From: a virus
DNA length: 37,851 nucleotides
Reading direction: 5' to 3' (one strand)
Virus record (IMG/VR): IMGVR_UViG_3300049255_000147
Coordinates: 1 to 37,851 of that record
The position numbers and the translations under genes were made by a program. Below are positions 5,221 to 37,851 of the stretch, one piece after another (positions within the stretch are counted from its first letter, which is position 1; each line of letters begins with the position of its first letter). Under the pieces are notes generated by a model. The model had not been told where the DNA came from and made no database searches. It saw only the letters and a list, made by a program, of their open reading frames with translations.

Positions 5221-5364
5221 CCATCGATCTGCTCGGCGACGGTGCTGGATGCCGTGTTGGCCGCCGTGCCGAAAGCGCCGCCCGGCGAGCCGCCGCACGT
5301 CATCGCGTCCTGGACGCATCCGCCGTGCAGCACCATCACTGTCGGCCACGCGCTCTGGAACTGA
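5217..5364 (+). pseudogene. Small gene with an apparent single-base frameshift
   Basis: ATG at 5217 (ATGA overlap) reads MTIDLL and then turns into a low-quality Arg/Ala-rich frame. One base after the sixth codon, the frame that starts at 5236 reads ATVLDAVLAAVPKAPPGEPP and on to HALWN with a stop at 5362-5364, which has good coding character. An extra G near 5235 would explain this: removing it gives a 48-residue protein. Alternatively the real gene starts at GTG 5242 with no good ribosome-binding site. Function unknown. Confidence 0.45.
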
Positions 5365-5462
5365 TGCAGCAAAAACGAGTGACGTTCAGCGGCGACGCGT
5401 TCGACCGCCGCTACTGGCGCGCCAGCCCGGCAGCCGCTGATAGCGTGGCGCAGGCGGCATGA
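5364..5462 (+). CDS. Very small hypothetical protein, 32 aa
   Basis: ATG at 5364 shares its A with the stop of the preceding frame (TGATG). Encodes MQQKRVTFSGDAFDRRYWRA followed by an Ala-rich tail; its TGA overlaps the next ATG. The translational coupling on both sides is the main support. No function visible. Confidence 0.4.
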   Translation: MQQKRVTFSGDAFDRRYWRASPAAADSVAQAA

Positions 5463-5929
5463 GCAACGCAGAGAGTCTCGCCTACGTCGTCGGAGTCTAC
5501 GAAGGCTCCAGCGGCGACGCGACCAAGGCGCTATATGAGCGGCTCGGTGGCTTGGGGCCAGCCGGCACGATCGCGCTCAACCTGTTCCGTGCCCAGAAGA
5601 ACTCAGCGCGGGCGAAGGTGTACCGGCGCCGCTACAAGCATGCGGCCTATGACCGCAAGCAGTGGGCAATGGGCAACCTCGCGCAGGCGCTATGCGACCA
5701 TGCCGATGCGCTGAACATTCGCTGGGGTTGGGGCGAGGACCCGGCGCAGGAGTATCACCGCGTCGTGCTGTATGTGGATTTGCCGACCGGGCAGGTCAGC
5801 TTCCACACGGACGTTCGCGGCGACGGTCCCGACTATCCGGGCGAATGGGACGGCGTTCGCGGGCAGTCGGCGGCGCGGATCTGCGCATGGACGGCGCGGG
5901 TCCTGGCGCATGAAAGCGCGCCCGCATGA
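5459..5929 (+). CDS. Conserved phage hypothetical protein, 156 aa
   Basis: Well-formed coding frame with ATGA-coupled start. Features: an N-terminal AESLAYVVGVYEG, a basic middle (RAKVYRRRYKHAAYDRKQW), then a beta-rich half with YHRVVLYVDLPTGQVSFH, GDGPDYPGEWDG and a closing SAARICAWTARVL. I recall the GPDYPGEWDG type motif from other phage proteins without assigned function. No catalytic motif or membrane segment. It ends 8 bases before the convergent stop of the PLD gene. Confidence 0.6.
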   Translation: MSNAESLAYVVGVYEGSSGDATKALYERLGGLGPAGTIALNLFRAQKNSARAKVYRRRYKHAAYDRKQWAMGNLAQALCDHADALNIRWGWGEDPAQEYHRVVLYVDLPTGQVSFHTDVRGDGPDYPGEWDGVRGQSAARICAWTARVLAHESAPA

Positions 5930-5937
5930 ACGCGCGC

Positions 5938-6456
5938 CTACTGGGTGGCGGCGCGGGCCTGGCGGGCTTGCCAATTTCGGGTGAACTCGGCCGCCACCTC
6001 GGGCGAGACGGTGACGGTCACGTCCTCGACGTTCCGACGCTCGGCGCTGGCGGTGTAATTGTAGCTGCCGCCGATCACCACGCGGCTGTCGATGATGATC
6101 GCCTTGACGTGCGCGATGCCCGGCACACGGTCAATCCACACCGGGATGCCGGCGCGCTGCATCGCCGCCAGCCCGCTGCCGTGCCCGTGCTCGTTGGAGC
6201 GATCGAGCAGCACCGCCACGTCCACGCCGCGATCCTTGGCGCGCAGCAGGGCTGCGATGATCGGGCGGGCGCTGAAGCCGTACGCCTCCACCCGGATGCT
6301 GGCGCGGGCGCTGTCGATCGCCGCCACGATGCGGCCGGCGCAGGGCTCGGCCGGGACGAAGCAGGTGTCCACCGTCGCCGGCGTCGGCTGCGCGGTGGCG
6401 AGGGCGGGCGCCAGGGCGGCCACCACCAGGGCGGCGAGAGCGGTGCGGATTTTCAT
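5938..6456 (-). CDS. Exported phospholipase D-family nuclease (single HKD motif)
   Basis: 172 aa from the ATG at 6456, chosen because a perfect GGAGGTGA lies 5 bases upstream. A signal peptide (MKIRTALAALVVAALAPALA, then TAQ) is followed by a PLD domain with the HKD motif HVKAIIIDSRVVIGGSYNYT: His116, Lys118, Asp123, with Gly129-Gly130 and Asn133. Length and the single motif match the Nuc-type periplasmic DNA nucleases that act as dimers. It is the only minus-strand gene inside the prophage, with its own strong ribosome-binding site, and so behaves like a cargo gene (moron) expressed in the lysogen. Periplasmic location would allow it to cut incoming DNA; that role is inference. Confidence 0.85.
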   Translation of the reverse strand: MKIRTALAALVVAALAPALATAQPTPATVDTCFVPAEPCAGRIVAAIDSARASIRVEAYGFSARPIIAALLRAKDRGVDVAVLLDRSNEHGHGSGLAAMQRAGIPVWIDRVPGIAHVKAIIIDSRVVIGGSYNYTASAERRNVEDVTVTVSPEVAAEFTRNWQARQARAATQ

Positions 6457-6511
6457 CGGATCACCTCCGTATCCGATCCTGCCCCCACGCTGCAACCGAT
6501 GCATTAACGCC

Positions 6512-6685
6512 ATGATAACGGGCTGGCACGTCGCAATTTATCGGTCGCGCATCTGCTGGATCGCGCTGGCCCGCCGCACGCCGTTCCCGCGCGGCGAGCT
6601 GATGCCCGGCCCCGGCGGCCGCTTCGCCTTCGGCCAGTCGCGCGACGAGGCGCTGGCGAACCTGCGCGATGAGGTGGCGCGGTGA
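6512..6685 (+). CDS. Small hypothetical protein, 57 aa
   Basis: ATG at 6512, divergent from the PLD gene with 55 bp between the two starts. Begins MITGWHVAIYRSRICWIALA. The C-terminal FAFGQSRDEALANLRDEVAR resembles the end of HicB-type antitoxin domains, but the fold is too short to be sure and no HicA-like partner is adjacent. GTGA overlap with the next gene. Confidence 0.45.
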   Translation: MITGWHVAIYRSRICWIALARRTPFPRGELMPGPGGRFAFGQSRDEALANLRDEVAR

Positions 6686-7237: not shown

Positions 7238-8802
7238 CCGCCCTTCCCGATGTCCTGCTGCCCTATCAGCAGCGCCTGTGGCAGGCGATCGATGCGAGTG
7301 CGCTCAGCGTGCACGAGAAGTCGCGGCGCACCGGCTTTTCCTGGGCGCTCGGCGCGGTCGCAGCTGCGACGGCTGGCGCGGCCCGCTCGGCCGGCGGCCA
7401 GGACGTGCTATATATGGGCTACGAAAAGGACATGACGCGCGAGTTCATCGGCTACGTGGCCGAATGGGCGAAGGCGTTCCAGGTCGCCGCCGGCGAGGTG
7501 CAGGAGTTCCTGTTCACCGACCCCGAGAATCCCGACAAGTCCGTCGGCGCGTTCCGCATCCGCTTCGCCAGCGGCTTCGAGGTGATCGCGCTGCCCAGCG
7601 TGGCGCGCGCGCTGCGCGGCAAGCAGGGGCTGGTGATCCTGGACGAGGCCGCGTTCATGGATGACCTGGAGGCGGTGCTGAAGGCGGCACTCGCGCTGCT
7701 GATCTGGGGCGGCAAGGTGGTCGTCGTCTCCACCCATTTCGGCGAGGAAAACCCGTTCAACGGCCTGATCAACGACATCCGCGCCGGCCGCACGCGCGGC
7801 GCGGTCACCCGCACCACGTTCGACGAGGCGCTGGCGGAAGGGCTGTATCGCCGCATCTGCCTGCGCCTCGGCCGCGCATGGTCGGCCGAGGCCGAAGCAA
7901 AATGGCGTCAGGAGATCCTCGACACCTATCGCGACAACGCCGACGAGGAACTGAACGTCATCCCGAACCCCACCAGCGGGGTATATCTGCCGCGCGTGCT
8001 GGTCGAGGCACGGTGCGTTCCCGATGTCCCGGTGGTGCGCTGGACCGCGCCCAAGGGCTTCACCCTGTGGGCGGAGCATATCCGGGTCGCCGAGGCACTG
8101 GCGTTCTGCGAGCGCGAGCTGCTGCCGGTGCTGTCGGCGCTGCACAAGGACGAGGCGCACGCACTGGGCAGCGACTTCGGCCGCGTGCGCGACCTGACGG
8201 TGGACTGGCTGCTGGCGATCGGCCGCGACCTGGTGCGCCGCCCGCGGCTGGTGCTTGAGCTGCGCGAGGTGCCGCACGAGCAGCAGCGGCAGATCCTGTT
8301 CTACATCCTGGACCGCGCGCCCAAGCTGCGCGCCGTAAAACTCGACGCCGGCGGCAACGGCAGCTACATCGCCGAGGCCACGCTGCAACGCTACGGCGAG
8401 TGCGTCGAGCCGGTGCAGTTGTCCGAGCTTTGGTATCGCGAGCACATGCCGCGCTGGAAGGCGGCGATCGAGGACGCGGCGATGCTGCTGCCGCGCGACC
8501 GCGAGATCGTCGATGACCACTGCATGGTCAAGCTGGTGCGGGGCATCGCCAAGATCCCGGACCGCCGCCGCACCGCCGCCGGCGAGCAGCGCCACGGCGA
8601 CGCCGCGATCGCCAGCGCCCTCGCCTACGCCGCCAGCGAGGCCGAGGTGATGGAGTACGGCTACGAGGGCGCCATGCCGTCGGCGCTGAAGCCGCCGGCG
8701 AGCAACCGCTGGCGCGACCGCCCGAACCATGACGACGACGTGGACGCGCAGCCGAGCGGCCGAGGCTGGATGCCCGAAATGAGGGGAGGATTGATGCTGT
8801 GA
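7234..8802 (+). CDS. Large terminase subunit, Mu gp28-like
   Basis: 522 aa; start chosen at the ATGA overlap. The ATPase part has a Walker-A-like EKSRRTGFSWALG (residues 28-40), Walker B GLVILDEAAF (132-141, with the catalytic Glu) and a coupling motif VVVVSTHFGE (162-171). The C-terminal nuclease domain begins near ALGSDFGRVRDLTVDW with its first metal-binding Asp. A likely later acidic residue is in the HGDAAIA segment near the end. It cuts the concatemeric or inserted phage DNA and drives it into the prohead through the portal. The last ~50 residues are a low-complexity Asp/Pro tail. Confidence 0.93.
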   Translation: MTALPDVLLPYQQRLWQAIDASALSVHEKSRRTGFSWALGAVAAATAGAARSAGGQDVLYMGYEKDMTREFIGYVAEWAKAFQVAAGEVQEFLFTDPENPDKSVGAFRIRFASGFEVIALPSVARALRGKQGLVILDEAAFMDDLEAVLKAALALLIWGGKVVVVSTHFGEENPFNGLINDIRAGRTRGAVTRTTFDEALAEGLYRRICLRLGRAWSAEAEAKWRQEILDTYRDNADEELNVIPNPTSGVYLPRVLVEARCVPDVPVVRWTAPKGFTLWAEHIRVAEALAFCERELLPVLSALHKDEAHALGSDFGRVRDLTVDWLLAIGRDLVRRPRLVLELREVPHEQQRQILFYILDRAPKLRAVKLDAGGNGSYIAEATLQRYGECVEPVQLSELWYREHMPRWKAAIEDAAMLLPRDREIVDDHCMVKLVRGIAKIPDRRRTAAGEQRHGDAAIASALAYAASEAEVMEYGYEGAMPSALKPPASNRWRDRPNHDDDVDAQPSGRGWMPEMRGGLML

Positions 8803-9185
8803 TGCGGTATCTCGGGCTGTGCCTTGTCGTGTCCGCCGCACCGACCCTTGCCGCGCCGCCGCCGGAAGGTCCGCTGCTGGATCGGCTGAAGCCACACAAG
8901 GACTGGATCGAGGGGCAATGGCGGCACTGCCACAACCCGCCCAGCGATCTGTGCTACTGCTGCAACGTCGCCGATGGCCGGCCGGTCGAAGCCGAGCAGC
9001 AGCGCGACGGCCACTGGCGAGCGCATGTCACGCCGGAGATGTGGCCGGGCGCGCCGGACAAGTGGGAAGACATGCCGCGCGAGATCGAAGTGCCGGACAG
9101 CCCGTTCATGTTCGAAGGCTTCCTATGGCGCAGCCCGAAGACCGGCCAGAATTACTGCTTCGCGCCGCCGGCCGGTGGCGTGTAG
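8799..9185 (+). CDS. Exported Cys-rich hypothetical protein, 128 aa
   Basis: Starts GTG 8799 or ATG 8802, both overlapping the terminase stop. The N-terminus YLGLCLVVSAAPTLAAPPP looks like a Sec signal peptide with cleavage near residue 20. The mature part has an unusual Cys cluster, HCHNPPSDLCYCCNVADGRP, and a later YCFAPP. Such clusters suggest disulphides in the periplasm. Function unknown. It lies with two more small genes between the large terminase and the portal, an interval normally empty in Mu. Confidence 0.6.
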   Translation: MMRYLGLCLVVSAAPTLAAPPPEGPLLDRLKPHKDWIEGQWRHCHNPPSDLCYCCNVADGRPVEAEQQRDGHWRAHVTPEMWPGAPDKWEDMPREIEVPDSPFMFEGFLWRSPKTGQNYCFAPPAGGV

Positions 9186-25294: not shown

Positions 25295-25843
25295 ATGTCC
25301 GGCACCGCATCCAACGCCACGCTGCTGCAATCGGCGGCGCGCTACGCGCCGATCGGCACGACGGCCGGCGTGCTGGACATCGCGCTGGTCTGGGACCCCA
25401 CCCGCGAGGGCTGCGACCTGGTGTGGAATGGCGGCGATTTCGCGCTCGACACCACGCCCGTCACCAACATGCTGATGGCGCTGGGCTGCGACCGCCGCGC
25501 GCGGCCGACCGACGTGCTGCCCGAGCCGGGCGCCGGTTGGTCGGTGCCGGCGCCGGGCCAGCCGGTCCCGCTGGTGGATCTGCGCCGCGGCTGGGCGGGC
25601 GACGCGCTCGATGCGCAGGGGCTGCGCACCGGTTCGCGGCTGTGGCTGCTGGTGAGGGCCAAGCAGACAGAGCAGACCCGCAAGCTGGCCGAAGGTGCCG
25701 CGGCCGAGGCGCTGGCGCAGGTGCAGGCCATGCTCGGCACGCCGGTCCAGCTCGCCGTGCGCTGGGTCGCCCCTGGCATGCTGGGCATCCGCGCGATCTC
25801 CGGCGGGGCGGCCGCCGACACCACGCAGCGCGTCGCCGTCTGA
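25295..25843 (+). CDS. Baseplate wedge component, Mu gp46-like
   Basis: 182 aa from ATG 25295, with GAGGA about 10 bases upstream. Contains LDIALVWDPTREGCDLVWNG, FALDTTPVTNMLMALGCDRR and RLWLLVRAKQTEQT, the typical GP46 layout (D-rich strand, 'AI...L...RRA...'). It belongs to the gp25-like wedge proteins with lysozyme-like fold. TGATG overlap with the gp47 gene. Confidence 0.87.
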   Translation: MSGTASNATLLQSAARYAPIGTTAGVLDIALVWDPTREGCDLVWNGGDFALDTTPVTNMLMALGCDRRARPTDVLPEPGAGWSVPAPGQPVPLVDLRRGWAGDALDAQGLRTGSRLWLLVRAKQTEQTRKLAEGAAAEALAQVQAMLGTPVQLAVRWVAPGMLGIRAISGGAAADTTQRVAV

Positions 25844-27126
25844 TGCCCTGGCCGATCCCCACGCCAGTCGAGATCAGCAACCGCGCGGCCGGCGTGTATG
25901 CCGGCATCTACGGCAATTTCAACGCCACCGCCGCCAACACCCTCGCCGGCGCCAACGCGCGCATCGTCGGCATGACTGCCTACGACCTGTATCAGTACCA
26001 GTCCTACGTGATGGGCGAGCTGTTCCCCGACACCACCATCGACAACCTCGATCACCATGCCAGCATCTGGGGCCTGACGCGCATTCCGGCGCAGGCGGCG
26101 ACCGGTTCGATCGTGGTCGCCGGCACCAACGGCACCGTGCTGCCGTCCGGCATCGTCGTCACCGACAGCCTCGGCAACAGCTACGTCACAACCGCCGGCG
26201 CGACGATTTCCGGCGGCGCAGCGACGTTGCCGCTGACCGCCAGCAGCGCGGGCGCGCAGGGCAATGTGGTCGCCGGCACGGTGCTGACATTGCTGTCGCC
26301 GCAGGCGGGGCTGAACCCGCAATCGGGCGTCGTGCTGGGCACCGGCACGGTCAGCGGGACATTGGGAACGGTCGTGCCGTCTGCGCTGGCGATGCAGGAC
26401 AGCGTCGGCAACGGCTACACCACCACGTCGGGCGGCACGCTGGGCAGCTCGCCGCTGACGGTGGATTTCGTGGCCAGCCTGACCGGCGTCACCGCCCTCG
26501 TGGCCGGCGCGGTGCTGACCTTGACAACGCCGGTGAGCGGCCTCAGCCCGGAGTCGCTCACAGTCACCCTGCCGGGCCTGACCAGCGGCGCCGCCACCGA
26601 GAGCAACGCCGCCCTGCAAGCGCGGCTGCTGCAACGCATCCGCCAGCGCGGGCGCGGCGGCAACGCGGCCGACTACACCACCTGGGCCGAGGCTTCGTCG
26701 TCGTCGGTCGCCTACGTGCAGGTGATCCCGAATTATGTCGGCGCCGGCAGCGTCGGGCTGTTCGTCGCCGGCATCGGACCGTCGGAACTCAGCACCGCCC
26801 AGGTCGCCACCGTGGCCGCCTATGTCGCGGGCGTGCGGCCGGTCACCGCCTATGTGCTGACCGCCACCGCCGTCACCCAGACCATCAACGGCACCGTGCA
26901 TCTGGTGCCCGACACCACCGCCAACCGCACCGCCGCAGCAAACGGCTTCGCGTCCTGGATCACCACCACGGCTGAGATCGGTGGCACCGAGTATCTTGAT
27001 GACATGGCCAGCGCCATCAAGGCGGCCGGCGGCGGCGCATTCAGCTTCGACATCAGCGTGCCCGCGGCCGATGTGGTGCTCGGCCCCGGCACCATCGCCG
27101 TCGCCGGCGTGCTGAGTTTCGTATGA
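25843..27126 (+). CDS. Baseplate J-like wedge protein, Mu gp47-like
   Basis: 427 aa. N-terminus PTPVEISNRAAGVYAGIYGN, then LDHHASIWGLTRIPAQAATG, and the conserved core AATESNAALQARLLQRIRQR with GRGGNAADYTTWAEASSSSV and AYVQVIPNYVGAGSVGLFVA. Between residues ~85 and 245 two similar beta-rich modules lie in tandem (each: G-T-V-L/V-P-S, then D-S-x-G-N-x-Y-x-T-T, then a hydrophobic strand with A-G-A/T-V-L-T-L). Common relatives have one, so the protein is longer than usual in that part. It joins the wedge to the fibre module. Confidence 0.9.
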   Translation: MPWPIPTPVEISNRAAGVYAGIYGNFNATAANTLAGANARIVGMTAYDLYQYQSYVMGELFPDTTIDNLDHHASIWGLTRIPAQAATGSIVVAGTNGTVLPSGIVVTDSLGNSYVTTAGATISGGAATLPLTASSAGAQGNVVAGTVLTLLSPQAGLNPQSGVVLGTGTVSGTLGTVVPSALAMQDSVGNGYTTTSGGTLGSSPLTVDFVASLTGVTALVAGAVLTLTTPVSGLSPESLTVTLPGLTSGAATESNAALQARLLQRIRQRGRGGNAADYTTWAEASSSSVAYVQVIPNYVGAGSVGLFVAGIGPSELSTAQVATVAAYVAGVRPVTAYVLTATAVTQTINGTVHLVPDTTANRTAAANGFASWITTTAEIGGTEYLDDMASAIKAAGGGAFSFDISVPAADVVLGPGTIAVAGVLSFV

Positions 27127-27788
27127 CCGCGCCCGCGCCCCGCACGCCGGCGCAGGTGCTCGGCGAGCTGCTGGCGCTGACGCCGCCCGGCTGGGCACTG
27201 CCGCACGATCCGGCCAGCGTGTGGGCGACGTTCCTGCAACCCTGGGCCAGTGAGGCGTCGCTGATCGAGACCACGGCGGCCTCGATGCTGAACGAGATCG
27301 ACCCACGCAGCGCGGTCTACAGCCTGCCCGACTTTCAGCGTGTGCTCGGCCCCGACCCCTACGGCCGCGACGCCGCCAGCCAGGAACTGAGCGAGGCGGC
27401 GCTGGCGACGCTGGAATGGAGCCGCTGGGCCGAGGGCGGCAACATGGCGCCCAGCGACTACATCGCGCTGGCCGCGACGATGGGCGTGACCATCACGATT
27501 CAGGAATACTGGCCGTCCGTCGCCGGGCTTTTCGCGGCGGACGGGTGCGTCGGCTGCGACCTGCCGCGCAACGTCGCGGGCGTGCTGGTGGCCGGCGACA
27601 CGCTCGGCGCCGATCCGCTGGCGTTCTACTGGCTGGTGCGGCTGCCGACCTACCTGTCCGATCCCGCCGAGGCCGGCACGATGCGCGCCGGCGACCTGGT
27701 CTCGACCTCGCTCGCCACGCCGGTGCCCGCCGTGATCCTCGGCGAGGCGCCATCCCACACCATCCCGCTTTTCCTGTTCACCGGGTGA
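27123..27788 (+). CDS. Mu gp48-like tail protein (DUF2313/YmfQ)
   Basis: 221 aa. Begins MTAPAPRTPAQVLGELLALT, then PPGWALPHDPASVWATFLQP, EASLIETTAASMLNEIDPRS, and DFQRVLGPDPYGRDAASQEL. The pattern 'L...LLP.G.AW......L......LA......I...A..L..E.DP.TA...L..WE...GLPD' is that of DUF2313. It connects baseplate and fibres. ATGA overlap with gp47; Cys-rich region GCVGCDLPRN near residue 140 is typical. Confidence 0.87.
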   Translation: MTAPAPRTPAQVLGELLALTPPGWALPHDPASVWATFLQPWASEASLIETTAASMLNEIDPRSAVYSLPDFQRVLGPDPYGRDAASQELSEAALATLEWSRWAEGGNMAPSDYIALAATMGVTITIQEYWPSVAGLFAADGCVGCDLPRNVAGVLVAGDTLGADPLAFYWLVRLPTYLSDPAEAGTMRAGDLVSTSLATPVPAVILGEAPSHTIPLFLFTG

Positions 27789-27792
27789 CCTG

Positions 27793-28992
27793 ATGCTCCG
27801 CACCACCGGCCTCTATTCGACGACGCTTTCGCCCGGCAGCCGCACCGGCTTTCAGAACCCGAACCCGCCGACGGTGCCAAACGGCTCGCAGGTGAACGCC
27901 GCGTGGCTGAACGATGTGCAGGAGAACGTCTGCGGCGTTATCGAGAGTACTGGCATTACGCTGGAAGACAGCGACAGCAACGGCGGCGCGGGGCAGTTGC
28001 AGCAGGCGGTCCGGCGGCTGACCGGGTCGAACTATGCCCTGATCATCGCCTCGATGTCGCCTTTCACGCTCACGCCCGACAGCGCCGGGCGCATCGTGGT
28101 CAACGCCGCGGCGGGCAATATCGTCATCACCCTGCCGCTGTCGGCGTCCATGGCCGGCACGCTGTGCGGGAGCGCCGTGAGCAACAGCATCGCGTTCAAG
28201 ATCTTCCGCGACGACAACTCCTCCAACACGGTGACCATCCAAACAGCGGGCAGCGACAATATCGGCTTCGCCGGACTGACCGGCACCAGCTTCCTGATTC
28301 CGCCGCTGGCGACCGCTGAGCTGTTCAGCGACACCAACATCACCTGGCTGATGACGGTGCCGCCGGTGTCGGGCGGCCCGCCGCAGATGATCTCCTACCT
28401 GACGCCCGGCACGAACACGTTCGTGGTGCCGGCCGGCAAGACCATGATCCGCGCGACCCTCACCGGGGCGCCCGGCGGCGGCGGCGGCACCCACACCACC
28501 GGCGACGCGGGGGTGGCCGGCGCGGGCGCGCCCGAGGCGGTGTTCATGCTCGCGGTGCAGCCGGGGTGGTCGCTGACCGTCGTGGTCGGGGCAAGCGGCA
28601 CCGGTGGCACCGGGGGCGCCAGCCCGACGGCGGGTGGCGCCGGGGGCACCACGTCGATCGCCCATGGCGCAAGCACACTCGCAGCGATCAGCGGAGGCAC
28701 CGGCGGGGCAGCCAGCAACTCGGCCGGCATCGCCAACACGGGCAACATCGCCGGCTTGGTGACGACCGGCACGCCGGTGCTGACGCGCGCGGCGGCGGCC
28801 GGCGGCTTCGCTTACGCGGCGGGGTCCGCCCTGATCAACGCACAGGGCGGCGCGCCGGACGGCGTCTCACCCTCGACCATCATCACGGCCACGGGCGCGA
28901 CGCCGTTGCTGCCGGGCTGCGGCGGCTATGGCGGCTGCGGCGGCGGTGGCGGCGGCGCGGGCGGCCCGGCGCGCGTGGTGCTGGAGTACTGA
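27793..28992 (+). CDS. Tail fibre protein with glycine-rich tip
   Basis: 399 aa. The N-terminus (TGFQNPNPPTVPNGSQVNAA; WLNDVQENVCGVIESTGITL) is the phage-fibre baseplate-binding pattern, including the V-N-A-x-W-L-N-x-V-Q-E-N motif. The middle is beta-rich. The last ~200 residues are rich in glycine (APGGGGGTHTT; TGGTGGASPTAGGAGG; GGYGGCGGGGGGAGG) and end in PARVVLEY. Polyglycine loops of this sort form host-binding tips in some phages, so this is the likely adhesin. The sequence is low in complexity, which makes homology judgement risky. Confidence 0.8.
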   Translation: MLRTTGLYSTTLSPGSRTGFQNPNPPTVPNGSQVNAAWLNDVQENVCGVIESTGITLEDSDSNGGAGQLQQAVRRLTGSNYALIIASMSPFTLTPDSAGRIVVNAAAGNIVITLPLSASMAGTLCGSAVSNSIAFKIFRDDNSSNTVTIQTAGSDNIGFAGLTGTSFLIPPLATAELFSDTNITWLMTVPPVSGGPPQMISYLTPGTNTFVVPAGKTMIRATLTGAPGGGGGTHTTGDAGVAGAGAPEAVFMLAVQPGWSLTVVVGASGTGGTGGASPTAGGAGGTTSIAHGASTLAAISGGTGGAASNSAGIANTGNIAGLVTTGTPVLTRAAAAGGFAYAAGSALINAQGGAPDGVSPSTIITATGATPLLPGCGGYGGCGGGGGGAGGPARVVLEY

Positions 28993-29315
28993 TGTCCGGC
29001 GCATTCACCTACGTCGTCCGGCTGAAGCAGGGCGCCACCCTGGCACTCGACCTGCTGTTCACGGACGACAGCGGCAACCCCATAAATCTCGCCACGGCCA
29101 CATCGGTGGGCGTGCTGATCTGTGACGCGTTCGGCAACGTGGTGGCGACGCCCGCGGTGACTCTGAGCGCGGAACTGGGCTGGGGCACCGTCACGGCCGA
29201 CACCACCGGCTGGCCCTATGGCGGCCTGCCCTGCCAGACCGAGGTGGTGGCGGCCGGCATTACCACCATCAGCGACACCTTCTACATCTTCCTCGATCGC
29301 GGGGTGAACGCGTGA
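28992..29315 (+). CDS. Small baseplate/fibre-associated protein, 107 aa
   Basis: TGATG overlap with the fibre gene. Beta-rich Ig-like pattern: FTYVVRLKQGATLALDLLFT, DDSGNPINLATATSVGVLIC and TISDTFYIFLDRGV, similar to the N-terminal domain of BppU-like upper baseplate proteins. No signal peptide. Likely a structural adaptor for fibres or spikes; inference only. Confidence 0.55.
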   Translation: MSGAFTYVVRLKQGATLALDLLFTDDSGNPINLATATSVGVLICDAFGNVVATPAVTLSAELGWGTVTADTTGWPYGGLPCQTEVVAAGITTISDTFYIFLDRGVNA

Positions 29316-29596
29316 ACGTCTTCGTCCGCCCCACCGGCCAGACCCTGGGCCAGACGCTCGGGTTCGGCCCGAACGGCAGCGCCGCCAGCCTGGACACCGC
29401 GCCGGTCAACGCCGGGCTGCTGACGGGCGACTACCTGCTGGTGCAGTCGGGCGGCGCGCTGGCCAAGGTGTTGGCCTCGAACCTGTTCGGCAGCGGCATG
29501 TCGGCGTGGCTGGCCACGCTGCCGACCAGTTACACGGGCCTGCCGATCGGCGCGTGGTGGAACAACGGCGGCACACCCGTGCAGGTGCAGGAATGA
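29312..29596 (+). CDS. Small fibre-module protein, 94 aa
   Basis: GTG at 29312 (GTGA overlap). Gly/Leu/Thr-rich: GQTLGQTLGFGPNGSAASLD, then GLLTGDYLLVQSGGALAKVL, and a C-terminal SYTGLPIGAWWNNGG that recurs in other phage fibre-region proteins. Function unknown. ATGA overlap with the next gene. Confidence 0.5.
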   Translation: MNVFVRPTGQTLGQTLGFGPNGSAASLDTAPVNAGLLTGDYLLVQSGGALAKVLASNLFGSGMSAWLATLPTSYTGLPIGAWWNNGGTPVQVQE

Positions 29597-31830
29597 AACG
29601 CTTCATTGCCGGCGCGGTCGCGCTGCTGCTGCTGGCGACGGCGGCGATCGGCGGCCCGCAGCATATCACCGCCTCGGTCCTGTCCACCGCCACCAGCACC
29701 TGGACCGACATCGCCCAGCGGTTCAGCCACATCCCGAACATCGTCGATGACTGCGGCGCGCCGACCGATGGCGTGAGCGACGCCGGGCCGGCGATCAACA
29801 CCTGTCTCGCCACCTATGGCCGCGTCGCGGCGCCGAGCGGAACATTCATGATCGGGACGTCCATCGTTCCGGTCGCCTATGGCGGCCTGCTCGGCTCGAC
29901 CGCCGGCCAGACCACCATGAAACTGATGCCGTCGCACGACGGCACTGACCTGGTGCTGTGCACCAACGCCTACGCGCTGTTCGGCGCCGGCGACGTGACC
30001 AGCAACGCCGGCACCACGTCCGCCTCGGTCGCTGGCGGGGTCGCCACGCTCGCCCTCAACCAGTCCGAGACGCTGCCGGTGGGCAGCACCATCGTGGTCG
30101 CCGGCATCACCAGCACCGGCGGCAATCCGCAGGGCTACAACGGCACGTTCGTCATCACCGCGTCGTCGGCCGGCAGCGTCTCCTACGCCGACGCGGCGGC
30201 CACCGGAACGCAAAGCGTCGCCGGCACCGTCACCATCACCGCGGACGGCTTCGAGCTGGGCAACATCACGTTCGACGGCAATTACGCGGCGCAGGCGGCC
30301 AGCAATCCGGCGCAGACCAACGGCATCGTCTGCTATGGGCAGCTTTGGAAATGGCACGACCTGATCGTGCAGAACACGGTCGGCGCGGCCTTCCATACCG
30401 GCTTTCAGAACTCCGGCGGCGGCGGGGCCTATAGCGTCGGTCTGGCGCATCTGAGCCACCTGCGCATCGTCAACGCGCAGCAGGACGGCTGGGATTGGGA
30501 AGGCCCGCACGATAGCTGGCTTGACCACATCGACATCGAGAACGCCTGCCAAGCCGCAGACAACACTTATTTCTCGTTCAATGCCACCGCCAGCAATGGC
30601 ACCGTCGATACGATCCACACCTATCTGGCCGGCTCATCTTCGAACCGATGCGCCACGCAGTTCTATGCGCCGGGCGGAAGTTTCAACATCTACAACGGCT
30701 ATTTCGAAGGCGGCCGGCAGCAAGTCGATCTTGGCCAGAATAGCCACTTCATCGGCGGCCATGTGTTCGCGCAGTTCCCGGAAGGCAGCGCCACCGGCAC
30801 CTGCCAGCTCACGCTGCAATCGAACGGCATCATCGTCCAGGGCGTGCAGTTCAACGGCTGGCCAACGGGTTCTTCGCAACAGCGCGACATGCACGGCGTC
30901 TGCCTTGGCACCAGCGGCGCCGCCGCGAGCGGCAACATGCTGGCCGGCAACAGCTTCTGGGATTACGACGTCTCCGGCGCAATCGACTACGTGAACGCGA
31001 GCGCGGGTAGCAACCAGATCTCCGGATGGGGCACCACCAGCGGCTCAGGCACGTCGCCGATGCTGGTTGGAACGGTCCCGAGCACCGACGACATCTACGT
31101 CGTCCAGGGCGGCACGGACCCGTACAGCGACACGCAAATCCCGAACCTGCCGGGCCAGCCGACAAGCTATGTGACGCTGACCAACGGGGGCACCTATAGC
31201 GCCGGCACCGAGGCGGTGTTGTGGATTTTGACCGGTGTGACCGGGCAGACCATCACGCTGCCGTCGGGCGTGAGCAACGCCAGCACCTATTCGGTTTGCA
31301 GCAAGGGCGAAAGCACGGGCATCGCCTGGGCGGCGCCGGGCGGCGAGAGCACCGGCGGCCTGATCCCCTCGGTGATCGGCAACGGCCAGTGTCTCACCTG
31401 GTATTATCGCCTCTCGACGACGGTATGGCAGGCGCAGAACGGCTTCGACCCCGCTTCGCCGCTGCCGATCGGCGCCACCACGCCGGCGGCCGGCAGCTTC
31501 ACGGCGTTGACGCGCGGACTGGAGGCGGTCGGGTCGGGCGCCGTCAGCACGGCCACGCCGGGCACCAGCGGCAGCACCATCAGCATGCCTACCGCCACGG
31601 CGGTGCTGAATATCCGTCCCGCCGCCGCCGTCACCAGCGTGACCATCACATTGCCCACGCCGTCCGCTGACCAGACGACACTGCTCATCCGCGTCATCGG
31701 CCAGCCCTTGAACGCCAGTTCGATCACCTGGGGTGGCCCTGGCGCTGCCAGCAGCGTCCCGACCGCCATCGCGGCGAACACCAGCCTGACCCTGTGGTGG
31801 GACGCCACCAGCGGCAAATGGACATTGTGA
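29593..31830 (+). CDS. Beta-helix tail spike (pectate-lyase-like) with N-terminal signal peptide
   Basis: 745 aa from ATG 29593. The first residues MKRFIAGAVALLLLATAAIG form a textbook Sec signal (two basic residues, hydrophobic core, small residues at the cut). Then comes CGAPTDGVSDAGPAINTCLA, the start of a pectate-lyase-3-like right-handed beta helix, followed by repeating short beta coils (LWKWHDLIVQNTVG; HLRIVNAQQDGWDW; NIYNGYFEGG; NSHFIGGHVF). The C-terminal ~170 residues form separate beta domains (GQTITLPSGVSNASTYSVCS; TATAVLNIRPAAAVTSVTIT). Spikes of this fold bind or cut surface polysaccharide. The signal peptide is not expected for a virion protein. Confidence 0.8.
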   Translation: MKRFIAGAVALLLLATAAIGGPQHITASVLSTATSTWTDIAQRFSHIPNIVDDCGAPTDGVSDAGPAINTCLATYGRVAAPSGTFMIGTSIVPVAYGGLLGSTAGQTTMKLMPSHDGTDLVLCTNAYALFGAGDVTSNAGTTSASVAGGVATLALNQSETLPVGSTIVVAGITSTGGNPQGYNGTFVITASSAGSVSYADAAATGTQSVAGTVTITADGFELGNITFDGNYAAQAASNPAQTNGIVCYGQLWKWHDLIVQNTVGAAFHTGFQNSGGGGAYSVGLAHLSHLRIVNAQQDGWDWEGPHDSWLDHIDIENACQAADNTYFSFNATASNGTVDTIHTYLAGSSSNRCATQFYAPGGSFNIYNGYFEGGRQQVDLGQNSHFIGGHVFAQFPEGSATGTCQLTLQSNGIIVQGVQFNGWPTGSSQQRDMHGVCLGTSGAAASGNMLAGNSFWDYDVSGAIDYVNASAGSNQISGWGTTSGSGTSPMLVGTVPSTDDIYVVQGGTDPYSDTQIPNLPGQPTSYVTLTNGGTYSAGTEAVLWILTGVTGQTITLPSGVSNASTYSVCSKGESTGIAWAAPGGESTGGLIPSVIGNGQCLTWYYRLSTTVWQAQNGFDPASPLPIGATTPAAGSFTALTRGLEAVGSGAVSTATPGTSGSTISMPTATAVLNIRPAAAVTSVTITLPTPSADQTTLLIRVIGQPLNASSITWGGPGAASSVPTAIAANTSLTLWWDATSGKWTL

Positions 31831-31838
31831 AGGACAGC

Positions 31839-32207
31839 ATGAAACGGATCCTGCTCACGCTGGGGCTGGTCTGCGCGGCGTGGCCCGCCGCCGCCACCAA
31901 CACGCCGGCCACCGGCAGCCTGACCTTGGCCAGCGCCGGGGTAGCGCAGAATTTCCAGAATGCGGGGGTTTCGGTCTTCTGCGTCATCAAGAACCCCGCG
32001 ACAGCGACCGAGCAGGGCATCGGCACCGCTGAAGCGATCTGGGTGAACGTCACCGGCACGGCGGTGGCAGGCGGCGGGGGCGCCAGCATCTCGCTGGAGC
32101 CCGACGAGTCACAGACCGTCGGCTGGACCGGCGGCCTCGCGATCAGTTGGGTCGCCGCGACGGCGGGGCATAAGATCGAGGGCTACTGCCAGGCTGCCTA
32201 CCAATGA
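31839..32207 (+). CDS. Small exported protein between two spike genes, 122 aa
   Basis: ATG 31839 has AAGGA about 6 bases upstream. Signal peptide MKRILLTLGLVCAAWPAAAT is followed by a ~100-residue beta-rich domain (GSLTLASAGVAQNFQNAGVS; AEAIWVNVTGTAVAGG; ISLEPDESQTVGWTGGLAIS). It could be a small carbohydrate-binding or Ig-like domain. No known family. ATGA overlap with the SGNH spike gene. Confidence 0.6.
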   Translation: MKRILLTLGLVCAAWPAAATNTPATGSLTLASAGVAQNFQNAGVSVFCVIKNPATATEQGIGTAEAIWVNVTGTAVAGGGGASISLEPDESQTVGWTGGLAISWVAATAGHKIEGYCQAAYQ

Positions 32208-35062
32208 GGCGCATGTTTCTGGCGCTGCTGGCGCTGCTGGCGGCGGGCGCCGCCCAGGCGCAGCTGACCGCGCCCAGCGGCGGCGTGACCCCCGCCGCCA
32301 TTTCCAACGCATTGGGGTTCACCCCGCTGCCGCCGAGCTATGCCCAGCAGGGCGTCTCGTTCGGCATGTTCGGCGACAGCCACGGCACGATCGGCATGAT
32401 CGACGGGGCGCCCTATAACTTCGCGGGCGGGTACAACGCCAATCAGTACACCTGCTCGGCGCAAAATCCCTATTGCCTCGCCGCCGGGCTGTCCAAGGGG
32501 CTGATCCGGTTCGACCCGCTTGGCTACCAGCCGAGCACGCACGGCTCTCAGGTCGCGGTGGACTGCACAGTCGGCAAGGCCGGGACGGGCTACGCGCACA
32601 CCGATTACGTGACGCTGTCCAGCGGACAGCAGATGTACTTGGACGTGAATTCGTCAGGTGGGGTGATCGGCTGCGCGACGCCCGTTTCAGGTTATATCGG
32701 CGGCGCCAGCGCCATCACCAGCATCACCACGCTGGCCGGCTACGGCGCCTACATGAACGCCTTCACGCCGGGCGCCGGCGACTTCTCGATCTCCGGCGAG
32801 ATCACCGAGACGGCGGCGGGCACCGGCAATTATTACCCGCAGGCCCTGGTGTCCGCCGCCAATCCGCCCACCGCGCCATTCACCGCGGCCGGCACCATCA
32901 ACCGTCTGACCGACGCACTGGCCGCCAGCGGCAACTACGGCAGCCATGGTGCGCAGGTGTCGGTATGGGGCATTCACCTTGGCGGCGACGACACCGACCG
33001 CCTGGCGCAAGCCTCGGTGACGACGACGCTGGGCTCGAATGTGGTGACCGCAGCGTCGGCGCTGCCCTACGGCTACACCGACCACCGATACTTCTTCCAG
33101 ACCAACGCCACCGGCACGAGCTGCTTCCCGCTCGGCACGTTCATCGAACAGATGACCAGCCAGACCAGTTTCACGGTCGGCTACTATGTCTGGAACGGTT
33201 CAGCCTGGGCGTTGACGGCCGCCAACAGCACCTGCGCCACGCAAACGCGGAATTCCGCCATCGAAGGCGTCGAGCTGTTCGAGATGGAGGCCAACTACCT
33301 GCACATCTGGAGCACGTTACTCGCCGCCGGCAAAAGCGTGATCCAGACCACCTTGCCCTATCATGCGTTCAGCACCTGTAAGGCGCTCGGCGTCAGCGAG
33401 AGCCAATGCGCGCTGGGTGTGGCCGAGACGGCCCGCATCAACCACTGGATCGTCGATTACATCCAGCAGAAGCGCTGGGCGGTGGCAGCGCCGAAAGGCG
33501 CCAACCTTGTGCTGTATGACGACGCTGCGCGGCAGGTAAACCCGGCCGATCCGTTCAGTTTCGCCTTCCCGGCCTTGATTTCCACCGCCGACCTGATCCA
33601 CCCATCGCCGGCCGGCGGGGCGATCGAGGCATCCGACATCGTGGCGGCCGAGGGGCCGATCTTGTCGGGCGCGGGGGTGCCGGCGGTCAGCGTCGGCGCG
33701 TACGATCTGTGGGATTCCCTGATCAACCCGGCTGGCGAGATCGGTTCGTCGCCGACCCACATCCTGTGCGGCCTGACCGTCGGCCAGACCACGTTCGGTG
33801 CTGCGTCCGGCGCCAACGCCTGCCAATATTTCGCCAATAGCAACACCTGGCCGAACGGCGCCACGATGCTGATCCGCGCGATGGATTTCCCGCCGGGCAC
33901 GCTGGCCACGCTGTCGGGCACCCTCGGCACCACGTCGCCGTCCGTCCCGGCGATCGCCGAGAGCAACTTCACCGGCTACATGACTGGCAGCATCAGCACC
34001 GGCGGGTCGATGGTGATCACCTCCGTCGCGTCGGGCGGCGTGAACACCGGCGACAAGGTGACTTGCGTCGGCTGCGCCGCCAGCATGGCGGTGACGCAGG
34101 CGAGCATCACCAATGGGCAGGCGGGCACCTATAGCGTCTCACCGTCGCCGGCTGCGACCATCCCGGCGGGCACCACGATCCTGCTCGCGACCACGCCCGC
34201 AGTGGCCAACGGCGAGAGCATGTATGCGGTGCGTTACGGGCTCGACATGGGGGTCAGTGGCGGCACGGCCTCGTGCGGGTTCACCGGTTTCGTCCCGTTC
34301 GGCATGGGCGCGCAGTGCTTTGCGACGTCGGTCCTGGGCTATATCACCGGCAGCACCCTGACGGTCGGCACCGAGTATTACGGCCTCATCGGCTCGGGTC
34401 ACATCACCACGTCCGTCGGTGGCTGCACGATCGCCGCCAATACCTACATCAATGGCGGCCCTGGCACCGGCGGCCCCGGCGCCTACTCGCTCAGCGCCAC
34501 CCCGACCGGCAGCTGCGGCACCAGCGGCAGCCAGATCGCCTTCACCATCACCGACGACAGCCATGGCACCGATGCCATCACTTGGAGCGGCACCCAGAAT
34601 GCGCTGGTGCCGGGCGGCGACTCCTGGACCGTGACCATCTCGGACGCGGCGGGCGCCTACCCGGCGATTCTGCAGCTCGTCTGGCCCTATGCCGTCGAGA
34701 CGCCCGCCAGCGTCGGGTTGAACACGGGCGATCAGGTCTATGGCCAGTGCGCGGTGACGGTCAGCAATGCTGCCAACGTGAATCTTGCCCAGTTGGCGGT
34801 GCGGACCACCGATGCGATCGCCAACTATCAGCTGGCCAACGGCACCGGCCCGATGATCTCGGCCACCGGCGCGGCCGGCATCACCCAAATCGGTGGCACC
34901 ATGAACCTGATCGCCGCCACCTGGCCGCTGACGGTGGACGCAAACAGCGGCAACCAGAACATCCTGCAGGGCAGTTTCGACGTGCAGATGATGCCGAACA
35001 CCACGGGCACGCTGACCGTGACTCTGTCGAACTGTGGCATCTACGTCGCCGGACGCGACTGA
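32204..35062 (+). CDS. Large tail spike with SGNH/GDSL esterase domain and signal peptide
   Basis: 952 aa. Signal peptide MRRMFLALLALLAAGAAQAQ. A phage-fibre-like LTAPSGGVTPAAISNALGFT precedes the catalytic domain, with block I VSFGMFGDSHG (Ser59), a possible block III VWGIHLGGDDTDR (~255-266) and block V STADLIHPSPAGG (Asp463, His466), which together give the SGNH triad. The domain is enlarged by a beta-rich insertion between block I and block III. The C-terminal ~460 residues are repeated beta domains with many Cys pairs (KVTCVGCAASMAVTQ; GGCTIAANTYINGG). SGNH esterases on spikes remove acetyl groups from host glycans. Confidence 0.82.
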   Translation: MRRMFLALLALLAAGAAQAQLTAPSGGVTPAAISNALGFTPLPPSYAQQGVSFGMFGDSHGTIGMIDGAPYNFAGGYNANQYTCSAQNPYCLAAGLSKGLIRFDPLGYQPSTHGSQVAVDCTVGKAGTGYAHTDYVTLSSGQQMYLDVNSSGGVIGCATPVSGYIGGASAITSITTLAGYGAYMNAFTPGAGDFSISGEITETAAGTGNYYPQALVSAANPPTAPFTAAGTINRLTDALAASGNYGSHGAQVSVWGIHLGGDDTDRLAQASVTTTLGSNVVTAASALPYGYTDHRYFFQTNATGTSCFPLGTFIEQMTSQTSFTVGYYVWNGSAWALTAANSTCATQTRNSAIEGVELFEMEANYLHIWSTLLAAGKSVIQTTLPYHAFSTCKALGVSESQCALGVAETARINHWIVDYIQQKRWAVAAPKGANLVLYDDAARQVNPADPFSFAFPALISTADLIHPSPAGGAIEASDIVAAEGPILSGAGVPAVSVGAYDLWDSLINPAGEIGSSPTHILCGLTVGQTTFGAASGANACQYFANSNTWPNGATMLIRAMDFPPGTLATLSGTLGTTSPSVPAIAESNFTGYMTGSISTGGSMVITSVASGGVNTGDKVTCVGCAASMAVTQASITNGQAGTYSVSPSPAATIPAGTTILLATTPAVANGESMYAVRYGLDMGVSGGTASCGFTGFVPFGMGAQCFATSVLGYITGSTLTVGTEYYGLIGSGHITTSVGGCTIAANTYINGGPGTGGPGAYSLSATPTGSCGTSGSQIAFTITDDSHGTDAITWSGTQNALVPGGDSWTVTISDAAGAYPAILQLVWPYAVETPASVGLNTGDQVYGQCAVTVSNAANVNLAQLAVRTTDAIANYQLANGTGPMISATGAAGITQIGGTMNLIAATWPLTVDANSGNQNILQGSFDVQMMPNTTGTLTVTLSNCGIYVAGRD

Positions 35063-35183: not shown

Positions 35184-36002
35184 ATGGAGTCGAGTCTCGA
35201 AACGACGCCTATTCGCCCTGCCGCGCCGGTCGCCGCGTATCTCGGCGGCAAGCGCAACCTTGCCAAGCGGATCATCGCCCGCATCGGCGCCGTGCCGCAC
35301 GCGACCTATGTCGAGCCGTTCGTCGGCATGGGCGGCGTATTCCTGCGCCGGCCGTGGCGCGCCCGGTCGGAGGTGATCAACGATCTCAGCCAGGATGTGA
35401 CCACGCTGTTCCGTGTGTTGCAGCGGCACTATGAGGCGCTGATGGACATGCTGCGCTGGCAACTCACCAGCCGGGCCGAGTTTGACCGGCTGCTGGCCGC
35501 CAACGCCGATACCCTCACCGACCTGGAGCGGGCGGCCCGCTTCCTCTACCTCCAGCGCACCGCGTTCGGCGGCAAGGTTGTGGGGCAGCATTTCGGCGTC
35601 TCGCCGGGGTTGCCGGGCCGATTTGATGTGACAAAGTTGGCATCGGTGCTGGAGGGGGCGCATGAACGCCTTGCTGGCGTCGTCATCGAGCGGCTGCACT
35701 GGCATGAGCTGCTGCGCCGCTACGACCGGCCTGAGACGTTGTTCTACCTGGACCCGCCATACTGGGGCAGCGAGACGGACTATGGCGCCGGCCTATTCGC
35801 CCGCGACGACTTCGCCCGGCTGGCTGAGGCGCTGTCTGGGCTGAAGGGTAAGTTTCTGCTGTCGCTCAACGACCGGCCGGAGGTGCGTGAGGTATTCGCC
35901 GCCTTCGCCCAGGAGCGATTGGAGACCACTTACATGGTCGCCGGCGGCGGCCGAAGCCAGCGCGTCGCCGAGTTGCTGATCTCTCGCCGCCCGCCCCTCT
36001 AG
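35184..36002 (+). CDS. DNA adenine-N6 methylase, Dam type (D12 class)
   Basis: 272 aa. Motif I AAYLGGKRNLAKRIIARIG (the FxGGK class), then a catalytic DPPY at YLDPPYWGSE, and the D12 marks YVEPFVGMGGVFLRRP and RTAFGGKVVGQHFGV. It transfers a methyl group from SAM to N6 of adenine. It stands alone at the right end of the prophage in the place of mom in Mu, which also modifies adenines. Protection of virion DNA against host restriction is a likely role. No restriction enzyme is next to it, so an orphan methylase. Confidence 0.93.
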   Translation: MESSLETTPIRPAAPVAAYLGGKRNLAKRIIARIGAVPHATYVEPFVGMGGVFLRRPWRARSEVINDLSQDVTTLFRVLQRHYEALMDMLRWQLTSRAEFDRLLAANADTLTDLERAARFLYLQRTAFGGKVVGQHFGVSPGLPGRFDVTKLASVLEGAHERLAGVVIERLHWHELLRRYDRPETLFYLDPPYWGSETDYGAGLFARDDFARLAEALSGLKGKFLLSLNDRPEVREVFAAFAQERLETTYMVAGGGRSQRVAELLISRRPPL

Positions 36003-36357
36003 AGCCCCCATAACAGGCCGATTAGCGTGCTCTCAGAGGGCTGAGGATGATCCCGCGTGGTTCCGGAATCGGGTGGCAAATTGTCCGGAATCGGATGGCG
36101 CGCTACAACCACCAGCGGCCCGGGGAGCCGCCGCAGATGCCCATGCCGCGCGATCAACTGGCACAGCAGGTCGGCGATGGCGGTGAGGCGGGTGAGCGGC
36201 ATGGTTAGAGATACTAACGCAAAGTGGGTGGGCGGGGCAAGGGGGGATGGTTTGTGGACCACGGGAAGGCGGGTGAAACCGCCGCCGCAACGCGCCGGCG
36301 CCTCCGTCGGCGGACCTGTGACTTGCGCCACGCGGCCAGACGCGCCAACAGATTGCC
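36003..36357. other. Non-coding region at the prophage/host junction
   Basis: No convincing gene. It holds the direct repeats at 36061-36099, a possible prophage end near 36107 and a short minus-strand frame that begins at 36202 (MPLTRLTAIADLLCQLIARH) and runs up to the putative end, where it could be a host gene cut by insertion. Composition changes from phage-like GC to mixed. The part from about 36215 resembles sequence that often lies around RAYT genes, but this is recall only. Confidence 0.4.
36061..36099 (+). repeat. Two 17-bp direct repeats with 22-bp period, candidate transposase sites at the right end
   Basis: TTCCGGAATCGGGTGGC (36061-36077) and GTCCGGAATCGGATGGC (36083-36099) differ at two positions and are spaced by exactly 22 bp. 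In Mu, R1 and R2 are 22-bp MuA sites that abut. A CA dinucleotide follows 7 bp after the second copy (36106-36107), as would be needed at a Mu-type end. IS ends are an alternative. Confidence 0.4.
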
Positions 36358-36493
36358 GTTACGGACTGCCTCCGCAAGCGCGTGCCAAGCGGCATGTACT
36401 GCTTCACGGTCAACCTGCTCGACCGTAACAGCGATTTGCTGACCGACAACATCAACGCGCTTCGCAAATCGGTCCGCGACGCCCGCGCCCACG
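36358..36493 (+). pseudogene. RAYT (REP-associated tyrosine transposase) N-terminal remnant
   Basis: The frame reads TDCLRKRVPSGMYCFTVNLL, then DRNSDLLTDNINALRKSVRD and ARAH. This matches the RAYT start ('TDYRRNRVPGGTYFFTVNLLDR.SDLL...I..LR..V...RA..PF'). The ATG expected before TDC is GTT. After ARAHG (about 36493) the similarity ends and the His-x-His catalytic centre 'LPDHMH' is absent, so it is a dead fragment. RAYTs move or maintain REP palindromes. Confidence 0.72.
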
Positions 36494-36552
36494 GGGCGAT
36501 ATGTCGGTATTCGCCCTCAGGCTTCCAACGAACTGGATCGGACGCCAAGATG

Positions 36553-37851
36553 TCAGCCAGGGTCGCGGAGTACTGCGAGCAGACTGACGCATGGACTTCC
36601 AATGTTGAGTTGTTCACTTGCCGGTCGAAGGCCAGCCTCTCCGGCGAGTTCAACCAATTCCTCGCGGATCAAACCATGCTGAAACATCCCCCGCCGAGCA
36701 TCACTGAGGTAGCCGTCGCCTTCAGGCGGCCAGAGCTTTCGCGCGGCTTCACCGTCGATCTCGGCCCGCGATCGGGCAACCATCAACAAGCGTCCCTTTG
36801 GTAATAGACAACGGGCAGCACCGCGGATCGATTGCAGCCTTTGTGATTCTGTAGGTAACACGTTTAGAACATATAAAAGGAGGACAAGGTCAAATCGGTC
36901 GGATGGTAGAAAGGCGCGACCAAAATCCGGGTGCGGATCGTATCCGGCTACTGCGTAACCAAGGTTGGTGAGGTGCTGCACGTCGGCGCCGTGCCCGCAT
37001 CCGTAATCAAGGATAGAACGTACCCCCCATCGCCCGAGTGCGCCTGATGCGACGAGTTTTCGGACCGGCTTCGATGCGATGGAACGATGAATTGCAGTGT
37101 TGTGCGGGCGGACATTAATTGACGTCGTGACGGTAGCCGACTGAGGCTCGCTATGGGGCGGTGAAAAGGTGGGCGCTCCTTCAATTGCCATTCCTGGCCG
37201 TAGGTCAACGATACAGGCTGAGTGGTCGGTAAACGCGTTCGATCCGCTTCGCACCTCATGGTCGTAGCGGGCAACAAAAGCATTGCCTTCGGTAGCGAAG
37301 GCCAGATCACAGCGAAATCGCGTCCACTTACCCTTGTTGATCCGCTCAAACGTATATTGCTGCCCTCCTAGCCGAACGCACGTTGTGAGATCAACCAGCC
37401 CGATTTCGGCAAGCAATCTTGTGAGTGCGGCGCGTTCACCTGCGCTCGTCCATTTGCTCTCGTCGTCACCGTAGCGGCCGTCCATCGGCATGGGCGCCAA
37501 ATTGAAATCGCCAACCAATACAAGCGGCTTGGCATTGTCCATAAGCGAACAGCGAAGGGCGTCGAGTTGCCGAACCCGAACCCTGCTCGAGTAGGCCGAT
37601 AGATATATGCAGCAAATCAGGGTAGAATCTGATTCCACGAACACGGCTGGAATGTCGCTGTATCTAATTAGACGAACAACTTTTTGCTTAGCCCAACACG
37701 CAACGTGCCCGTCACCTGCGACTAGATCCATATCCACGATCTTCGGCGGCAAGCCTGCGCCTGGGCCAACAGCCTCCTGCAGCAGAAGAACTTCGGGATC
37801 GACGCGAACCAGCCATCGCTGCATTGCTCCCAGAGTCTTCGGATCATTCAA
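36553..37851 (-). CDS. EEP-family nuclease fused to SAM methyltransferase (5' end outside window)
   Basis: 432 residues visible; the frame is open at the window edge, and a few N-terminal residues including the first EEP strand are missing. Residues 1-220: endonuclease/exonuclease/phosphatase domain with catalytic Glu in VLLLQEAVG (Glu26), VLVGDFNLAP (114-117), RCDLAF and the DH pair in NAFTDHSACIVDL (209-210). Residues ~245-432: class I methyltransferase with NTAIHRSIASKPVRKLV, SILDYGCGHGADV (282-288), AGYDP and a YVLNVLP strand, resembling DNA phosphorothioation-associated methyltransferases. Clearly lower GC and different codon use than the prophage. Confidence 0.8.
   Translation of the reverse strand: MNDPKTLGAMQRWLVRVDPEVLLLQEAVGPGAGLPPKIVDMDLVAGDGHVACWAKQKVVRLIRYSDIPAVFVESDSTLICCIYLSAYSSRVRVRQLDALRCSLMDNAKPLVLVGDFNLAPMPMDGRYGDDESKWTSAGERAALTRLLAEIGLVDLTTCVRLGGQQYTFERINKGKWTRFRCDLAFATEGNAFVARYDHEVRSGSNAFTDHSACIVDLRPGMAIEGAPTFSPPHSEPQSATVTTSINVRPHNTAIHRSIASKPVRKLVASGALGRWGVRSILDYGCGHGADVQHLTNLGYAVAGYDPHPDFGRAFLPSDRFDLVLLLYVLNVLPTESQRLQSIRGAARCLLPKGRLLMVARSRAEIDGEAARKLWPPEGDGYLSDARRGMFQHGLIREELVELAGEAGLRPASEQLNIGSPCVSLLAVLRDPG

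Follow-up and report, generated by a model that had tools for sequence, protein, structure and literature searches.

Predicted Sec signal peptides on three tail-spike-type proteins encoded at the end of the tail operon of a Mu-like myophage

The stretch of DNA analysed here (the window) is a 37,851-base IMG/VR record with 68.7% G+C, and its genes follow the order of a Mu-like contractile-tailed phage (Mu-like myophage): terminase, portal, Mu F-like minor head protein, protease, major head protein, sheath, tape measure, baseplate hub, J, gp48, and fibre. Three genes (genes 1 to 3) are placed in the tail module, 3′ of the baseplate, fibre, and adaptor genes, and each starts with a predicted Sec signal peptide. 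The features of this region are:

25840-27126, plus strand: baseplate J-like protein (Pfam PF04865, E 1e-43; phrog_6, E 4e-49)
27123-27788, plus strand: Mu gp48-like baseplate wedge protein (phrog_203, E 1e-23; PF10076, E 1e-5)
27793-28992, plus strand: ordinary tail fibre without signal, with a glycine-rich C-terminal domain (phrog_863, E 2e-10; PF21722, E 3e-5)
28989-29315, plus strand: small structural protein (108 aa), in place of a Gp77-type fibre-tail adaptor (34% identity to the protein at 5343-5648 of locus L004, which has the same place)
29312-29596, plus strand: 94-aa protein with the C-terminal end LPTSYTGLPIGAWWNNGGTPVQVQE, a motif that precedes signal-bearing spikes in relatives
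29593-29652, plus strand: predicted signal peptide of gene 1, MKRFIAGAVALLLLATAAIG (score 5.87)
29593-31830, plus strand: gene 1, 745 aa, beta-helix-like tail spike with predicted Sec signal (10 mature cysteines; fibre-type motif PIGATTPAAGSFTALT)
31839-31895, plus strand: predicted signal peptide of gene 2, MKRILLTLGLVCAAWPAAA (score 5.59)
31839-32207, plus strand: gene 2, 122 aa, small domain with predicted Sec signal (2 mature cysteines; no family match)
32204-32260, plus strand: predicted signal peptide of gene 3, MRRMFLALLALLAAGAAQA (score 5.93)
32204-35062, plus strand: gene 3, 952 aa, fibre/SGNH-type protein with predicted Sec signal (18 mature cysteines; N-terminal fibre motif VTPAAISNALGFTPL)
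32372-32380, plus strand: SGNH block I of gene 3, GDS, residues 57-59 (sequence reading)
33590-33604, plus strand: SGNH block V of gene 3, DLIHP, residues 463-467 (sequence reading)
35184-36002, plus strand: phage D12 adenine methyltransferase, the 3′ neighbour (PF02086, E 6e-21; phrog_56, E 4e-78)

The preliminary description of this DNA had called the three genes tandem and translationally coupled, and the coordinates agree: the 94-aa gene runs into gene 1, and gene 2 into gene 3, through ATGA overlaps, and gene 2 starts 8 nt past the stop of gene 1, behind GAAGGA. It had also allowed that different true starts might remove the signals; however, the ATG starts are conserved in syntenic relatives, and the in-frame GTG codons upstream of ORFs 1 and 2 fall inside the preceding genes. 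Genes 1 to 3 close the late tail operon and are tightly coupled. This position bears on the proposal that a lysogen makes the proteins constitutively and so masks or modifies its own receptors (lysogenic conversion or superinfection exclusion): export and glycan-active domains would suit such a role, as would the glycosidase-like and acyltransferase-like genes found before the same methyltransferase in another locus (L014), but the genes form part of a late tail operon, to which they are coupled, and no sigma-70-like promoter was found on the plus strand between 27000 and 35400 (alphaproteobacterial promoters may depart from that consensus). We consider constitutive expression by a lysogen unlikely. 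The D12 methyltransferase, which served as a handle for locating related tail ends, has its nearest relatives in named genomes mainly in Roseomonas and other Acetobacteraceae (65-73%), the best match being a proteobacterial MAG (77%); because these relatives are mainly Acetobacteraceae, the host of the window phage is likely a member of that family.

Signal peptides were scored with a home-made rule (basic n-region, uncharged hydrophobic core, and small residues at -3/-1), by which E. coli OmpA, MalE, PhoA, LamB, Bla, and DsbA reach 4.5-5.9 and LacZ and GroEL 0. The rule-based scores of genes 1 to 3, listed above, match those of the E. coli periplasmic proteins, and the signals are conserved in relatives, which upholds the earlier claim of Sec signals on all three. 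Scores of at least 5 from the first start codon were obtained for 11 of 1809 six-frame ORFs of at least 120 aa, and for 5 of 358 called genes upstream in related loci; chance thus accounts for about 1% per ORF, and the expectation for three neighbouring chance signals is about 1e-6. Each N-terminus has the basic n-region, hydrophobic core, and AxA-type site expected for Sec and signal peptidase I. As judged from sequence, Sec export of the three proteins is well supported, since two independent criteria, the conserved signals in relatives and the paired cysteines (see below), point to it.

The three proteins appear to be of tail-spike or surface-glycan type, as first described, but the domain labels then given (beta helix, small beta domain, SGNH esterase) are weaker than claimed. 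The beta helix of gene 1 is sub-threshold (PF12708, E 5.9e-5, 23.4 bits against a cut-off of 27), gene 2 matches no family, and gene 3 has no Pfam, PHROG, or PDB sequence match, its SGNH label being given by motifs only (the GDS and DLIHP blocks are present, and block III would be GGDD); an AlphaFold prediction of gene 3 made without relatives has a mean pLDDT of 34.5. Direct searches with the window proteins returned no usable relatives in phages, viral contigs, genome contigs, or 299 Acetobacteraceae genomes: their own sequences are near-orphans, with almost no relatives. We therefore compared the slot instead of the sequences, reaching related tail ends (given L numbers) through the neighbouring methyltransferase, gp48, and the motif gene; a baseplate J search of viral contigs found no usable relatives.

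The window slot is the fibre slot of other phages. Methyltransferase-linked tail ends with signal-bearing spikes include L004 (289 and 966 aa), L036 (a 265-aa protein and a GH66 enzyme, Pfam E 9e-76), L046 (several, one a 635-aa SGNH-like protein), L082 (596 aa, SGNH-like by motif), and L089 from Sphingomonas immobilis (500 aa, PF13472, E 3e-8). A gp48 search gave matches in 78 of 397 Acetobacteraceae genomes, and signal-bearing spikes occur in at least 10 of the 79 oriented tail ends (L201, L206, L207, L208, L211, L227, L234, L237, L274, and L288), a minimum, since some contigs are cut short and gene calling performs poorly at low G+C. Among 13 tail ends sampled from the phylum, no signal-bearing spike was found in the tail module. 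One Acetobacteraceae genome (L208) repeats the window layout of large, small, and large proteins, in the order fibre, Gp77-type adaptor, 118-aa motif gene, 673-aa beta-helix spike, small protein of ∼130 aa, and 909-aa fibre, with signals on the last three. Its adaptor, two genes 5′ of the first spike, matches Gp77, the fibre-tail adaptor of podophage GP4 (PF23148, E 1e-15), and is the counterpart by position of the 108-aa window protein; the latter differs in having no match to PF23148, and is linked to the adaptor by position and by its identity to the L004 protein. Across these phages, mostly of Acetobacteraceae, the slot holds beta-helix spikes, SGNH esterases, a GH66 glucanase, and fibres, all bearing signals. 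Tail-end spikes with predicted signals are not unique to the window phage. Signal matches on small lipoprotein-like genes or on late lysis-region genes were left out, as were those of L078 and L124, which sit on lambda-J-like tail-tip proteins (L078 3987, L124 5230); these hydrophobic, signal-like N-termini are probably membrane segments and not cut signals.

Three of the signal-bearing fibres (L288, L207, and L227) have a common short mature N-terminus, QFxPPxGLPLxTPLG, and a signal-like N-terminus is present on every member found of their family, including relatives from viral and Acetobacteraceae genomes (most score above 4.5; L301, L304, L307, and L308 were judged by eye). The mean identity among 14 sequences of this family is 0.37 in the signals versus 0.58 in the next 28 residues, as one would expect of a signal retained for its properties, and the signals mostly end in AxA followed by Q or AP. 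Homologues without a signal, which the preliminary description had thought worth comparing, do exist. Known tailed-phage spikes and fibres, such as P22-type beta-helix spikes and SGNH minor tail proteins, resemble the window genes in their place at the end of the tail operon, their beta-helix and SGNH-type domains (putative in the window genes), and their fibre repeats, but those examined have no signal peptide: it is absent from 6 of 6 SGNH relatives of the L089 protein checked in cultured Gordonia, Rhizobium, Mesorhizobium, and Shewanella phages, those of Gordonia phages being annotated as minor tail proteins. The signal therefore belongs to certain alphaproteobacterial phages and not to the enzyme family.

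Proteins that fold in an oxidising compartment tend to have even numbers of cysteines. We clustered 54 signal-bearing proteins (40% identity), counting only cysteines beyond residue 28; 28 of the 32 clusters are even, two are odd, and two have no cysteine (even in 28 of 30, binomial p 4e-7). In both odd representatives (L004 and L155) a cysteine lies just before the fixed cut, and with the predicted cut site the count is even. Large signal-less tail proteins of Acetobacteraceae phages, by comparison, include 17 even, 12 odd, and three without cysteine (28:2 versus 17:12, Fisher p 0.002). This control was preferred because a broader signal-less gene set (81 even, 102 odd) may contain miscalled ORFs; gp48 was dropped as a parity control, being uninformative after clustering. 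The even pattern was first noticed in 24 of the proteins and held after the set was enlarged to 54, and membership of the set was decided by signal and position without regard to cysteines, which makes the signal and parity evidence independent. The mature counts of genes 1 to 3 are all even, and the 18 cysteines of gene 3 accord with the several disulphide-capable cysteines ascribed to it earlier. Given these even counts, the signal-bearing tail-end proteins most likely fold in the oxidising periplasm.

Cultured Acetobacter phages carry such genes as well. In phiAO1, which like phiAP1 was located through the adaptor search, the 820-aa protein phiAO1_380 bears a signal (N-terminus MSPLFKTRFLLSLCSGVVMLAGAEA), and the short segment PNHxLPQFxxLG is fused to the spike as its start, behind this single signal; in phiAP1-like phages (L335, L336, and the phiAP1 record) a distinct gene encodes the same segment, and this gene has a signal of its own. 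In the phiAP1 record (L311, 8800-8875) the second signal-bearing gene is frame-shifted within the signal and hence annotated from a later start; it is intact in the close relatives L342 and L343, and the difference may be a sequencing error or real variation in phiAP1. The tail end of phiKM1 has no signal-bearing gene. phiAX1, with P22-like structural genes, has two, a 321-aa protein and a GH66 enzyme (phiAX1_450) with 47% identity to that of L036; the module therefore moves between phage types. The annotated start of the phiAX1 GH66 gene (L401, 27384-29312) cuts off the signal, which sits upstream. Both GH66 proteins belong with the GH66 dextranases and cycloisomaltooligosaccharide glucanotransferases, and differ from them in being phage-borne, in bearing signals, and in lying within clusters of structural genes; no GH66 gene occurs in the window.

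The divided segment also speaks to the reading that the hydrophobic N-termini are parts of the virion, e.g. membrane-interacting or coiled segments at the spike base, and not Sec signals. The lambda-J-like tail-tip proteins of L078 and L124 do have hydrophobic N-termini that are probably virion membrane segments, but in the proteins considered here both halves of a split protein have separate signals, small residues at the cut site are kept while the sequence diverges, the mature parts have even cysteine counts, and tail-end proteins of very different folds share only the signal feature. Such a virion role is very improbable.

The gene directly 5′ of the spike is a further shared element. The C-terminal motif of the 94-aa window protein is common to short adaptor-type genes preceding many signal-bearing spikes; these end in an LPTxxxxxGWWNNAGIPT- or LPTTDPxxxGxWWNNGG-like motif, often with an ATGA overlap into the spike. 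At Acetobacter-type motif loci the next gene is signal-bearing wherever the sequence exists, by score in L318, L321-L334, and L338-L341 (L331 and L332 reach only 3.8) and on inspection in L319, L320, L335, L336, L342, and L343. The WWNNGG-type motif is also found at protein ends in unrelated, mostly metagenomic phages, where it is followed by the gene of a fibre-like protein; of the other motif loci, 52 have a next gene, and none of these 52 genes bears a signal; as the motif loci include many near-duplicates, the contrast is one between lineages and not among ∼75 independent cases. One motif gene (L292, 9228-10004) has three tandem copies of a W-NN-G motif, as if to provide multiple sites for docking.

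The tailspikes known to date fold, and are attached, in the cytoplasm. Our literature search found no published precedent for tail spikes or fibres that bear signal peptides. Signal-directed passage of phage late proteins through Sec is known from Lys44 of fOg44 and from SAR endolysins (PMC6116005); those are lysis enzymes, whereas the cargo in the window is of tail-spike type. We think it fairly probable that the three genes form an exported tail-spike module. The sequence evidence supports the first steps, namely late synthesis together with the tail, passage through Sec, removal of the signals, and disulphide formation in the periplasm; lysis would then set the proteins free, and they would act on glycans of the envelope or exopolysaccharide by binding or by lyase or esterase activity. 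After release, at least some may dock on a virion-carried adaptor (the products of the genes at 28989 and 29312), so that the spike would be added outside the cytoplasm. Features that suggest docking are the occupancy of the fibre slot, the coupling to the motif gene, and a build resembling that of fibres; we favour it as only slightly more likely than purely free action. The stronger proposition, that a lineage of tailed phages completes its virions outside the cytoplasm by attaching a Sec-exported, disulphide-bonded adhesin to a displayed adaptor at lysis, is put forward tentatively, at a little short of even chances.

Several observations weigh against parts of this scheme. The spikes follow ordinary signal-less fibres and may thus be dispensable on the virion; the GH66 domain fills the L036 protein (residues 46-651 of 664), leaving little room for a virion anchor; and virions in the cytoplasm would have to meet periplasmic spikes efficiently. 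A TEM survey of acetic acid bacteria phages found contractile particles and detected no tail fibres on 15 phages (PMC8566455), which is weak evidence against virion-bound spikes. The exported proteins might instead never join the virion, acting as soluble depolymerases, esterases, or binding proteins that are freed at lysis and strip or occupy surface and matrix glycans, whereby progeny would not be trapped on debris and could spread. The signals and paired cysteines, the retained signal-less fibre, a GH66 glucanase with hardly any sequence beyond its catalytic domain, and the TEM result all agree with such free action; but some members resemble non-enzymatic fibres (L227, L207, L299, and L306), a conserved short mature N-terminus with variable C-termini is the usual build of virion-attached fibres, and the linkage to the motif gene is tight. 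We regard an entirely free existence as a serious but somewhat doubtful alternative. Signal-bearing, cysteine-paired spikes are in any event at odds with the textbook view of tail spikes finished inside the cell: under the docking reading some phages would add adhesins outside the cytoplasm, and under free action they would keep a secreted, glycan-active spike arsenal beside the virion. Either would alter what is read from genomes about host range, depolymerase release, and phage-matrix interaction, in acetic acid bacteria and related alphaproteobacteria, where cultured temperate phages make it testable.

A few further observations concern other loci and other parts of the window. At 6501-9766 of L014, just before the phage methyltransferase, an acyltransferase-like gene comes after the gene of a signal-bearing glycosidase-like protein; the two are a possible surface-glycan conversion module (labels by sequence reading). 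Between the terminase and portal genes of the window, a small gene (8799-9185) has a weaker signal-like N-terminus (MRYLGLCLVVSAAPTLA, score 4.0), and its product is possibly exported; a minus-strand ORF at 5938-6513 has an internal start with a strong signal-like segment (MKIRTALAALVVAALAPALATA) and is overlapped by a plus-strand ORF. The last part of the window (36000-37851) shifts in composition and has the look of host or cargo DNA, with a minus-strand ORF that reads like a nuclease or methyltransferase.
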